The notes beneath the pieces were generated by a model. It searched no databases, had not been told where the DNA came from, and saw only the letters and a program-made list of their open reading frames with translations. From Thermococcus sp. 21S7 (GTDB lineage: Archaea; Methanobacteriota_B; Thermococci; Thermococcales; Thermococcaceae), in contig NZ_SNUT01000001.1 of assembly GCF_012027615.1 (NCBI RefSeq), positions 434,001-498,000 on the forward strand: a DNA stretch of 64,000 nt, written 5' to 3'. Position numbers and translations under genes: made by a program. Below, in pieces: positions 3,631 to 28,231 of this stretch (positions are counted from its first letter, which is position 1; each line of letters starts with the position of its first letter).

Positions 3631-6659
<3,029 letters not shown>

Positions 6660-21021: not shown

Positions 21022-23310
21022 TCACTTACCCATCAGGGTGAACTGGGCCAGCAGGGCCTCAAGCTGTATCATCTCGTTCGCCCCTTCCACGAGCCTGAAG
21101 TTGTACTCTCCAATCTTGTCAGCCAAGGCAACTTTCCTGTCCTCGGGTATCGTCAGGTTGAAGACCTCCTTGTGCATCTGGATGAGAACGTCCTCGCCGC
21201 TCAGTCCCTGCTTGAGGAGAATCTCCCTGAGCTTCTCCCTCGCCTTCAGGAAGTTGCCCTCCAGAGCCAGCTGCATCATCTGTCTGACATCCTCCGGCCT
21301 TGCCCTGCTGGCAACGAGGAAGACGTTCTCATCGGTTATCTTGGTGTCGAGGGCGGCAGCAGCCTGCAGGACGTTGATTGCCCTTCTCAAATCACCCTCC
21401 GCAACGTAGAGGAGCGCCTGAAGTCCATCCTCTGTGAGGTCAAGCCCTTCGTTCTCGGCGATGTAGAGGATGCGCTTCGCTATGTCCTCGTTGTTGAGGG
21501 GCCTGAAGCGGAAGATTGCACACCTCGACTGTATCGGCTCGATTATCTTGGAGGAGTAGTTACAGCTGAGGATAAACCTCACGTTGTTGGAGAACATCTC
21601 CATCGTTCTCCTCAAAGCCTGCTGGGCGTCCTGCGTTAGGGCGTCAGCCTCGTCGAGGAAGATTATCTTGAAGCTCGCCCCGCCTATCGGCTTCGTGCGA
21701 GCAAACTCCTTGACTTTCTCCCTAATCACGTTTATTCCGCGCTCGTCGGAGTTGTGAAGCAGAACCGGAATTTCACCGGCGAAGAACATCTCGTTGCCCG
21801 GAACGCTGACGTCGTAGACGAAGTCGTTGTATTCAACGAGCTCGACCTTCCTAACGGTTAGGGCGTGTAAATCCGTCTCGGCAAGCTTTCTAAGCGTTTC
21901 AAGTATTCTTCTGCCTTTCTCGTCGAGCTTGCCCTTGTTGACCATTCCGAGGACCTTTCTCAGTGTTGCCTTCCTAACGCGCTTCTTGCCCTCGTAGAGC
22001 TGGTGCCTGAACTCGTAACGCCAGTTGCCCTCGATGGCGTTCTCTATTGCCATAAGCATCCTAGCTATCGGCTCCGCAGGAAGGAGCTCAGCCTTGCTCC
22101 ACTTCATTCCACCCTTCCAGATTAGCCTCGCCTCCCTCTCGAAGAGGCTCGCATCTATTCCAGAAACCCTCGCGAGCCAGACGGTGTCTATGAGCAAATC
22201 CTTTGAAACTGAGGAAACCCTGATTACACTACCCCATTCTCCTGTTCCGTCACCGTCGGCAATGCCTTTCAGGAAGGCTATTCTCTCCGGAACAGGAAAC
22301 TCAAAGACAAATCCGGGGATTCTTTTGTTCACGGCCCTTCTGCCGTTCCCGTCGTAAAAGCTGTCTTCAAAGAACCTCGCCAGCTGGGTGTTGAGGAACC
22401 TGAGCTGGTGCGCGCTCTTCCTTGAGCGGTCGAAGGCGGAACCAACGTCGTTCTCATAGAGGCTTATCCCAAGGTTCTCGGCGAATGCCCTAACGCGGTT
22501 TATCAGCTCGTCTTCGTGATTTCCGAGGGTGTAGATGACCTGACCGGAGGTCTTACCCTTGAATCCCACCGCTCCTTCAGCGGCATAAAGGCCGAGCATG
22601 TAGGAGAGCTCCTCACCGACGGGAAGGTTCTCAAAGGCCCTCGTCCTCGCGCTCTCCTTAATCCTGTATTCGCTCAGGTCAAGAACGTCGAGGAAGCCCT
22701 CAAGGTTGGCCGTGAAGCTGAGGAGGATTGTACCTTCCGTAAGCTCACTCGCCTTCACAGTTTCGAGTCCGTTCTCGGTGAGCACCATAACGGAGTGGTT
22801 TCCGGTGAGTTCGAGCTTTCCACCGCCTTCGAGGTGAACACGGAGTATAACCGGAACGCGGTGGCGGATTATTTTGCTCACCCTGGCCCACTTGACGCGG
22901 TAGTTCTCGTCAACCGTAAGGACTTCAAGGTTTGGAGCATCTTTGTAGGCAACATCACCGTCGTTCCCGTCGAAGTAGATTTTGTCAAGCTCGGCAAACG
23001 TCGTCCTGATGATTCTTCCGTTGAGCCTCACGAGTATCGGGGTGTCCTTGGAAACGGAGGCATTCAGCTCAAGGAAATTGTGTTTCCAGTGCTCTCCAAA
23101 GAGTTCTCGCGCTAAGGCCAGCGCACTGGTCGTCTTTCCCGTACCAGGAGGCCCCGCGAATAAAAGATGGGGCATCGAACCGGTTTTAGCGTAGTGCTTG
23201 AGCCTTCTGACGATGTGAGCCTGACCAACGATGTCGTTGAGCCGTTGAGGCCTGTATTTCTCAACCCAGGGCTTCTCAAGGATTTTAACTTCCTTAACTT
23301 CCTCAGACAT
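21022..23310 (-). CDS. rfcS: Replication factor C small subunit with intein
   Basis: Encodes a 762-residue precursor. The extein parts (84 plus 242 residues) make the usual 326-residue Rfc[18 protein letters not shown], Walker [12 protein letters not shown] at 51-61, Walker [11 protein letters not shown], sensor [10 protein letters not shown] and the SRC motif (QSRCAIFRF). The intein interrupts the conserved LNA/SDERG motif just after Walker A and must be spliced out before the protein can work in the clamp loader. ATG 23310 follows GGGTGAT; longer in-frame starts upstream have no homology support. The stop overlaps the rfcL start region. Confidence 0.95.
21751..23058 (-). mobile_element. Intein in RfcS with LAGLIDADG homing endonuclease
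   Basis: 436 codons in frame. The N-terminal splice residue is Ser ([12 protein letters not shown]), block B is LTGNHSVMV, the two dodecapeptide motifs are [10 protein letters not shown] and [10 protein letters not shown], and the C-terminus is VPVLLHN followed by Ser +1 of the extein. Removal rejoins ELNA to SDERGINV. The presence of acidic residues in both dodecapeptides suggests the homing endonuclease may still be active. Confidence 0.93.
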
Positions 23311-23355
23311 AGCCATCACCCTACCTAAAGGCTTATGAGCCTTATGAGGTATTAA

Positions 23356-23490
23356 GCCTTTTGCCATGATCCGCTTGAACACGCCTCGATACCCACGCTG
23401 GCATACCTCGCACTCTCGTCGAATCCCACGGGAGACAGCGTCGCCCTCGCCCTGCTCCTCCTGGCGGTAATGGTTCTTAGGCTGCACTAA
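23356..23490 (+). pseudogene. Possible C-terminal relic of a membrane permease
   Basis: An open frame of 44 codons without a start codon, ending in a very hydrophobic segment ([17 protein letters not shown], then TAA). It looks like the last transmembrane helix of an ABC-type permease whose front is gone. It lies in the divergent gap between rfcS and kbl. Weak evidence; chance cannot be excluded. Confidence 0.25.
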
Positions 23491-23545
23491 CTGGGGCACT
23501 GCAAAACTTTTATACCTCGATGTCCAAGAATCACCGGTGGTTCTC

Positions 23546-24733
23546 ATGGCGAAGCTCGACTGGATTAGGGAAGAGCTCAAGGAGCTCAAGGAGAAAGGCC
23601 TTTACGTAACCATAAGAAAGCTTGAAAGCTCCCAGGGCCCCTGGGTCGTCGTTGACGGAAAGCGCGTTCTCAACATGTGTTCGAACAACTACCTCGGCCT
23701 GGCCGCACATCCCAAGATAAAGGAGGCCGCGATAAGGGCCATCCTCGACTACGGCGTCGGTGCCGGAGCGGTTAGGACCATCGCCGGCACCATGGAGCTC
23801 CACGTGGAGCTTGAGGAGAAGCTCGCCAAGTTCAAGAAGAGGGAGGCAGCCATACTCTTCCAGAGCGGCTACAACGCCAACCTCGGCGCTTTAAGTGCTC
23901 TGCTCACCAAGAAGGACAACGGTGTGTTCATCAGCGAGGAGCTCAACCACGCGAGCATCATAGACGGAATGCGCCTCAGCGGCGCCCCGAAGGTCATCTA
24001 CAAGCACCTTGATATGGAGGACCTCAAGAAGCGCCTCGAAGAGAACAAGGACAAGGAGAAGAAGATAATCGTCAGCGACGGTGTCTTCTCGATGGACGGT
24101 GACCTCGCCCCGCTGCCGGAGATGGCGGAGCTGGCCGAGCAGTACGATGCCATGCTCTACATAGACGACGCCCACGGTGAGGGTGTCCTCGGAGACAGCG
24201 GAAGGGGTATAGTCGACCACTTCAAGCTCCACGACCGCGTTGACTTCGAGATGGGTACGCTGAGCAAGGCCTTCGGTGTCATCGGCGGCTACGTGGCCGG
24301 ACCGGAGGAGGCCATCGACTACCTCCGCCAGCGCGGAAGGCCGTTCCTCTTCTCAAGCGCCCCGAACCCGCCCGACGTCGCCGCGGCCATAGCTTCCGTC
24401 GAGATACTCCAGCACAGCGACGAGTTAGTGAGAAAGCTCTGGGACAACACCCACTTCCTCCAGAACGGGCTGAGGGACCTCGGCTACGACCTCGGCAACA
24501 CCAAGCACCCGATCACCCCGGTCATGCTCTATGACGAGAAGACCGCCCAGGAGTTCTCAAGGAGGCTCTACGACGAGTACAACATCTTCGCTCAGGCCAT
24601 AGTCTACCCGACCGTCCCGCTCGGAACCGCAAGGATAAGGCTCGAACCTTCAGCGGCCCACAGCAAGGAGGACCTCCAGTACGTGCTGGATGCCTTCGAG
24701 GACCTCGGAAAGAAGACCGGGTTCCTGAAGTGA
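23546..24733 (+). CDS. kbl: 2-amino-3-ketobutyrate CoA ligase (glycine C-acetyltransferase)
   Basis: PLP enzyme of the alpha-oxoamine synthase family, 395 residues. With threonine dehydrogenase it turns threonine into glycine and acetyl-CoA. Visible are [10 protein letters not shown] near residue 45, [10 protein letters not shown] with the PLP-contacting Asp and His, and the PLP lysine in MGTLSKAFG near residue 240. The substrate could also be that of a sister enzyme (8-amino-7-oxononanoate synthase), but the length and YPTVP...ARIR end fit KBL. GGTGG precedes ATG 23546. Strongly biased codons suggest high expression. Confidence 0.9.
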
Positions 24734-26275: not shown

Positions 26276-26340
26276 GTTATAGACTACGCGCCAAGGCTTT
26301 TAAGGCTTGAGGGGGAATTCATCCTGGGTGGCCACCCCGC

Positions 26341-26393
26341 GTGATGAGCACTCTCGAACCTGACGGCGGGATGATGACCGGATTCCTGGCTGA
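26341..26393 (+). ncRNA. C/D box guide sRNA
   Basis: All four boxes are present with canonical spacing: C box GTGATGA (26341-26347), 12-nt guide, D' box CTGA (26360-26363), a 7-nt spacer, C' box ATGATGA (26371-26377), 12-nt guide, D box CTGA (26390-26393). It directs 2'-O-methylation with fibrillarin, Nop5 and L7Ae. The D guide pairs over 10 Watson-Crick bp plus one G-U with 23S rRNA at window 4250-4260; the N+5 rule predicts methylation of the G complementary to position 4256. The D' guide target is unclear. A TATA-like CTTTTAAGG at about 26297-26305 could be its promoter. Confidence 0.85.
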
Positions 26394-26461
26394 TTCTCCC
26401 CCCTACTTTCCGGAGTAAAGTTTAAAGCCCCCGAAAACTAAGTCAACCGGTGGGTGATGTT

Positions 26462-28231
26462 ATGCGCATAGCCGAAGACCTCAACAGCCCGGTTGGAATC
26501 GTGACCGGTGAAGCCACGGTCAACTCATTCCAGTTCTACGCTCATCCCGATAGCGACCTCAAGTTTGGAGACTTCGTCGTTGCAAGGCTGTGCAAGGAGG
26601 CGAAGGACAGGAACTGCCGCTGGGGAGACGACGTTGAGTGGGTTATAGGCACCATCAGAGGGATTAAAAACATCAACTGGCTCCTCAGTGAGGGTAAGAG
26701 CACCTTCGCGAGCCTTGACCTCGACCTGCGCGAGTACGGGGAGAGCATAGGCGAGAACGAGGCGCTGATAGTCACAGTTCATGTGCTGGGGAGGATAGAG
26801 TTCAGGGGCGAGGGGGCAGAGATAGTTCCCAACCGCGTCCCGGTTCCCAACGGAAACAAGGTTTACACAGCCAGCTCCGACCTCCTCAGGGCAATCTACT
26901 ACGGTGGGGAGGGCTTCATCGAGGTTGGAACCCTGCTTCTGAGGGACGACGTGCCGATATACCTCAACGCCGACGAACTGGTTTCGAGGCACTTCGCGGT
27001 TTTAGCCGTTACCGGAGCGGGCAAGAGCAACACCGTTTCGGTCATGCTCTGGAAGATGGTGGAAGAGCTGAGGGGAACGGTCGTCGTCCTCGACCCCCAC
27101 GGCGATTACATGCGCCTGAGCCTTCCCAACACGGGCACAAAGTACGTCAACCTCATCGAGGCGAGAATCCAGCCCGAGACGATGGACGGCGAGGAGCTGG
27201 CCGACCTCATGGAGATAGGGAGCAACGCAACCATACAGCGCTCCTACCTGCTGCGAGCCTGGGACACCGTTCTCCACGAGAACCCCAACCTTGGTGGGAG
27301 GGAGATAGTCAAGGCCGTCCTCGACCTGCTCCAGAACTGGGTAACCAACGCGGGGGGAAGCTACTGGGACCCCCACGCAAACAAGTACCGCGACCTCGGC
27401 GAGATAAAGGCCGCCGAGAGGGAAACGATAACGAGGCTCACGATGAAGATATCCCGCTTCCTGAGGAACTACGGCCATCTGCTCTCAAGCGAAGACATAG
27501 TGGCATCCATCAGGGCGGGAATGGTGAACGTCATAGACCTCGGCCCCCTGGACGAAGGCCAGATGAAGCTCGTCGCCGCGAAACTCCTCGAAAAGATGTT
27601 CGAAACCAGAATGGACTACGAGAAGGCCAGGAAGAGGCTAGAATACCTCAAGAGAAAGTACGGAAGCAGAATCTCGGCCGTTTCGGAAGAGGTGGAGGAG
27701 CTTGAGAAGTTCATCCGCTCAGTCGAGGCGAGCTATCCGGCCCTCTCGGAACCTATACTCATAATAGTAGAAGAGGCTCACATCTTCGCACCCCACGGCG
27801 AGAAGGGCGGAACCGTGAGGATACTCGGAAGGATAGCCAGGGAGGGCAGGAAGTTCGGCGTCGGCATGGGACTCGTATCCCAGAGGCCGAGCAGGCTCAA
27901 CGAGGACGTGCTGAGCCAGACGAACACGAAAATCATAATGCGCATCGTAAACCCAAACGACCAGAACTACGTTATAAAAGCCAGCGAACAGCTGAGCGGG
28001 GAGCTGATGGGGGACATAGCCGGCCTCGGCAAGGGTGAAGCGGTGATAGTTGGCCAGGCCATAAGTCTGCCGGCGCTGGTGAAGGTCTACAACTTCAAGG
28101 CCCTCGGCGGCGACTACGGGGGCGAGGACATAGGCGTCGTGAGGCGCTGGAAGGAAAGGGCGGAGCGCGAGAAAGCCGAGGAGAAGAAGGAGGAGCTCTA
28201 CGAGGAGGAGGGCATAGAGCTGGACTTCTGA
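26462..28231 (+). CDS. herA: DNA helicase/translocase HerA
   Basis: Hexameric FtsK/HerA-type ATPase that works with NurA, Mre11 and Rad50 to resect DNA ends. 589 residues: N-terminal HAS beta-barrel (about 1-100), Walker [11 protein letters not shown] near residues 182-191, Walker [11 protein letters not shown] near 436-445, and an arginine-rich region with [22 protein letters not shown] 26462 follows GGTGGGTGAT, and GTAAAGTTTAAAG (26415-26427) is the likely TATA region. It is the first gene of the resection operon, here followed by a toxin-antitoxin pair instead of mre11. Confidence 0.95.

Follow-up and report, generated by a model that had tools for sequence, protein, structure and literature searches.

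An sR5-family C/D box sRNA upstream of herA in Thermococcus sp. 21S7 with two predicted target sites in 23S rRNA

The sRNA locus between rimI and herA

The window analyzed here, a 64-kb stretch (64,000 nucleotides) of the Thermococcus sp. 21S7 genome, carries on its minus strand an archaeal 16S-tRNA-Ala-23S operon preceded by an H/ACA RNA (Pab19). On the same strand, at 21022-23589, is an 855-aa ORF for the replication factor C small subunit, whose translation appears to include an intein, with a homing-endonuclease-like insert in the P-loop domain. The subject of this study is a small RNA gene on the plus strand, with rimI (minus strand) upstream and herA and mre11 downstream (Table 1).

Table 1. 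Coordinates in the window of the sR5 sRNA, its parts, its surroundings, and its predicted targets in 23S rRNA.
Feature	Positions	Strand	Remarks
TATA-like element of the sRNA's own putative promoter, AAGGCTTTTAAGG (TTTTAA)	26298..26303	+	43 nt before box C
Perfect 12-bp palindrome, GGGTGGCCACCC	26326..26337		Adjoins the sRNA on its 5′ side, where transcription is expected to begin
C/D box sRNA, Rfam sR5 (RF01304)	26338..26394	+	cmscan, 48.7 bits
Box C, GTGATGA	26341..26347	+	From the sequence
D′ guide, GCACTCTCGAAC	26348..26359	+	12 nt; pairs over 10 bp with 23S, window 4282-4291
Box D′, CTGA	26360..26363	+	From the sequence
D′-C′ spacer	26364..26370	+	7 nt
Box C′, ATGATGA	26371..26377	+	From the sequence
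D guide, CCGGATTCCTGG	26378..26389	+	12 nt; pairs over 10 bp plus a G-U with 23S, window 4250-4260
Box D, CTGA	26390..26393	+	From the sequence
TATA-like element of herA	26420..26426	+	Downstream of the sRNA; from the sequence
herA	26462..28231	+	NCBIfam NF040819, 980 bits (cut-off 970); neighboring gene, separate from the sRNA
D-guide target in 23S rRNA	4250..4260	-	Predicted 2′-O-methyl G, complement of 4256
D′-guide target in 23S rRNA, overlooked earlier	4282..4291	-	Predicted 2′-O-methyl G, complement of 4289

The initial annotation had called a C/D box sRNA with two 12-nt guides from the letters alone, and had proposed a search with Rfam-type models. All boxes and both guides were located where it had placed them, and an Rfam scan of the window returned five matches, among them an end-to-end match to sR5 that covered model positions 1-53 of 53 with a score above the 40-bit gathering threshold (E of 4e-8 on the scale of the window). 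The arrangement is that of archaeal C/D RNAs, that is, boxes C (RUGAUGA), D′ (CUGA), C′ (RUGAUGA), and D (CUGA) in this order, with guides of ~12 nt, and box C read RTGATGA in every homologue that matched the D guide. Genes for fibrillarin, Nop, and L7Ae-family proteins were present in the genome. Judged from its sequence, the feature is a real, correctly recognized, and ordinary member of the catalogued family sR5.

An element of the TATA type also precedes the genus-1 homologues, in which TTTTAA or TTAAAA was located 31-45 nt upstream of box C. According to the review by Breuer et al. (PMC7994747), only about 20% of archaeal C/D sRNAs have a TATA-like motif of their own, placing sR5 in the minority. 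The palindrome that follows lies 26-29 nt downstream of the TATA element and was present in 23 of the 36 same-genus sR5 loci (in one as GGGTGCCACCC). Each carrier checked had a single copy of it, and a genome in which sR5 is missing (G015) had none. The palindrome can form a 5′ hairpin whose loop is GGCC, and changes in its outer pairs are partly compensated (G017, G028, and G032); such a hairpin might cap the 5′ end of the transcript, or the palindrome might serve as an operator.

The sRNA had also been described as standing before herA, which holds here and in 35 other genomes, such that the herA neighborhood is kept in 36, but not as a rule, since sR5 is located away from herA in Pyrococcus-like and several Thermococcus genomes. 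As regards herA itself, HerA of the window type (26462-28231; compared in L179-L198) was absent from many Thermococcaceae. In these, the best HerA was only ~45% identical and located elsewhere, which looks like the exchange of two HerA lineages between species.

Two guide-target pairings in the 23S rRNA

The pairing of the D guide with 23S rRNA was reproduced as first described, with 10 Watson-Crick pairs (4250-4259), one G-U (4260), and the N+5 position opposite 4256, and had a duplex energy of -18.1 kcal/mol at 37 °C. The predicted G corresponds to 23S position 2404 and aligns to A2309 of Escherichia coli (alignment with E. coli rrlB). The guide was nearly invariant across the six Thermococcaceae genera, all of which had CGGATTCCTG between boxes C′ and D, and the target CAGGAATCCG was identical in every 23S gene read. 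The near-invariance in six genera, together with the Rfam match, backs the earlier prediction of this site.

For the D′ guide, the best-scoring site in the organism's own 16S and 23S rRNA was the 23S segment UAUCGAGGGUGC (window 4282-4291, minus strand). This duplex comprises 10 bp, nine Watson-Crick and one G-U, with N+5 opposite 4289 and an energy of -16.8 kcal/mol at 37 °C. The predicted G is 23S position 2371, which aligns to E. coli G2276 in the same alignment. Other D′ sites in the 16S and 23S rRNA of this genome were lower-scoring and not common to different genera. Both guides thus form duplexes of ~9 bp or more that cover N+5, and in the 23S rRNA the D′ site precedes the D site by 33 nt, within the 100 nt of one rRNA that defines a double guide.

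The D′ guides of other genera were GCGCCATCGATG (genus g3), GCGCCATCCGATA, GCGCTTCCGATC, or GTGCCCTTGATC, and the homologous 23S segments were UAUCGGGGGCGC, UAUCGGAGGCGC, or UAUCAGGGGCGC. Although guide and target both differ, the homologous site was the best or near-best D′ match in g1, g3, g4, and g5. Specifically, four of the 12 guide-target pairs were altered on both sides: A-U to G-C, C-G to U-A, U-A to C-G, and, at N+5, C-G to U-A, the last in g5. In three g3 genomes a 13-nt D′ guide would pair over all 12 target bases (in one with a terminal G-U), provided that one A is bulged. When each guide was assigned to the target of its own clade, this assignment ranked second of 24 permutations; the top-ranked permutation swaps g3 and g4, and some g3 and g4 targets are identical.

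As an observation in its own right, four g3 loci (L004, L015, L018, and L030) have 13-nt D′ guides that fit the 12-nt target only with a bulged A, a possible exception to the usual assumption of no bulges in N+5 counting.

The initial annotation had pointed to another stretch for the D′ guide, noting that its first seven bases, GCACTCT, occur at 4239-4245, with pairing that stops short of N+5. The seven identical bases are present and would favor this rRNA, adjacent to the D site, as the D′ target. However, the duplex has an energy of -12.7 kcal/mol versus -16.8 at 4282-4291, does not cover N+5, and loses its match in g3, g4, and g5, where the guide differs while the rRNA stretch is nearly constant. 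The observation therefore stood but the lead to a target did not; as a target the stretch is already refuted and barely conceivable, and the comparison across genera marks the match as a coincidence.

Short motifs such as RTGATGA and CTGA could also arise as a chance run of boxes without function, and shuffling indicated how readily a guide finds a match. The D score was reached somewhere in 16S and 23S by 124 of 4000 shuffled D guides, and a match of a single guide alone is weak evidence. Chance is untenable because the features are conserved across genera, and the Rfam match above the cut-off and the guide-target co-variation within a six-genus conservation have already refuted a functionless run, whose probability is vanishingly small. 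A narrower role for chance would have the D guide act alone, with the D′ match at 4282-4291 being accidental. The score of the D′ guide at its true site was reached by 287 of 4000 shuffled D′ guides, the D′ guide of one g2 genome is unrelated to the homologous 23S site, and in most g1 genomes the two D′ guide bases that adjoin the box at the end of the guide are unpaired with the target. Against this stand the top or near-top rank that the homologous site has in four genera whose guides differ and the four pairs altered on both sides, while only 1 of 4000 shuffles brought both matches within 100 nt of each other, so that an sRNA with a single working guide is quite improbable.

A different kind of alternative is that the element acts in cis, as an L7Ae-responsive k-turn in the herA leader and not as a free guide RNA. 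The sRNA is located close to herA, which starts 69 nt downstream of the end of box D, and in T. kodakarensis some of the k-turns at 5′ positions may act as cis-regulators (PMC4247193). Nevertheless, both the neighborhood and the spacing between box D and herA vary, Pyrococcus and several Thermococcus genomes have homologues far away from herA, a TATA-like element belonging to herA itself stands between the sRNA and that gene, and the guides and boxes are the most conserved parts, which together render a cis-acting leader very improbable. Overall, the complementarities and their co-variation identify sR5 as a double guide for two 23S G residues (2371 and 2404) at which methylation is predicted.

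Distribution and loss in the Thermococcaceae

A search with the pattern of box C′, D guide, and box D (nCGGATTCCTG), allowing up to two mismatches, recovered sR5 in 62 of 94 Thermococcaceae genomes, representing all six genera, while a control pattern read backward had no match in the 94. None of 21 genomes from elsewhere in the phylum had sR5. A scan of all species returned 12 Thermococcales records and a single Acidobacteria record, the latter looking like a chance match.

No sR5 copy within two mismatches was present in 19 of 74 good genomes, and in genomes lacking it the rRNA targets were unchanged wherever the 23S was read, for which reasons sR5 is probably dispensable. The gap between rimI and herA is devoid of sR5 in two genomes (G015, L171, and G035, L173), and upstream of herA in a third (G056, L172) there is a decayed remnant in which the D′ guide (GCCCTCTCGAAC) and box D′ survive while boxes C and C′ are gone. 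A search of the genomes without sR5 for a substitute guide, using GGATTCCTGN{0,3}CTGA, gave a few matches and no substitute; those inspected (all except two) were without a C′-D box frame and mostly coding-like.

Proposed action and relation to known sRNAs

The reading that we favor, and consider very probably correct, is that sR5 is a double-guide C/D sRNA with its own TATA-type promoter and guides methylation of the two 23S G residues complementary to 4256 and 4289. What the sequences show are the boxes, both complementarities together with the way these are conserved and co-vary, and the partner-protein genes; transcription, particle assembly, and methylation are inferred. The RNA would be transcribed from its own promoter between rimI and herA and would form two k-turn motifs (C/D and C′/D′) to be bound by L7Ae, after which Nop5 and fibrillarin would join, giving a methylation particle. 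In it, the D guide would base-pair with one 23S hairpin, at its loop and 3′ side, and the D′ guide with the 3′ strand of the next hairpin upstream; fibrillarin, by the N+5 rule, would methylate the 2′-O of two G residues separated by 33 nt. We take the equivalents of E. coli A2309 and G2276 to lie in helices 84 and 81, respectively, of 23S domain V. Given that the D′ site is within a helix, the D′ guide would invade the hairpin stem, and it resembles the displaced strand. Counting against this reading, the D′ target is a strand of a stable rRNA hairpin, which must be open for D′ pairing to occur. The same holds for the lack of sR5 in 19 of 74 good genomes, the two unpaired D′ guide bases in most g1 genomes, and the second rank of the clade-matched assignment.

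Double guides have been proposed to act also as folding chaperones (Dennis et al., PMC4644070), and by analogy such a role is possible for sR5. Both guides would then hold open the two neighboring hairpins of 23S domain V until the particle leaves, an extension that we regard as doubtful. If it were true, lineages that lack sR5 yet have the same targets would have acquired a replacement or come to depend on it less, for example through a lower growth temperature.

What is new here is the second (D′) target, which co-varies with its guide, and a corrected view of the D′ lead, although the sR5 target assignment may be listed already in Gaspin et al. 2000 or snoRNAdb. The result is of modest weight, adding a double-guide target assignment with comparative evidence to a catalogued archaeal sRNA. 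Furthermore, closely related Thermococcus genomes with and without sR5, having identical rRNA targets, offer a natural comparison for the effect of two ribosomal methylations. Transcriptomes of related species have confirmed RNAs of this kind, with T. kodakarensis yielding 54 C/D box RNAs (PMC4247193) and T. onnurineus yielding snoRNAs of the Rfam type (PMC5316973).

Compared with the Rfam family, the RNA shares the sR5 boxes, the nCGGATTCCTGG-type D guide seen in all Thermococcaceae genera read, and an end-to-end match over the gathering score. It differs from the g3 members of sR5 in the D′ guide, which is GCACTCTCGAAC here and GCGCCATCGATG in g3, tracking the local 23S change, and in the D′-C′ spacer, which is 7 nt here versus 3-4 nt in g3. 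The sR7 family (RF01310) has the same C/D box layout, but its model scored 21.3 bits, under the cut-off of 37, and the guides are unrelated. About half of 489 archaeal C/D sRNAs have been placed in the double-guide class, with two sites within 100 nt (2015, PMC4644070), and sR5 shares with these two guides to 23S within that distance and an N+5 position inside the duplex. Nothing essential sets it apart from the class, as the D′ duplex of nine Watson-Crick pairs and one G-U falls inside the relaxed double-guide rule.
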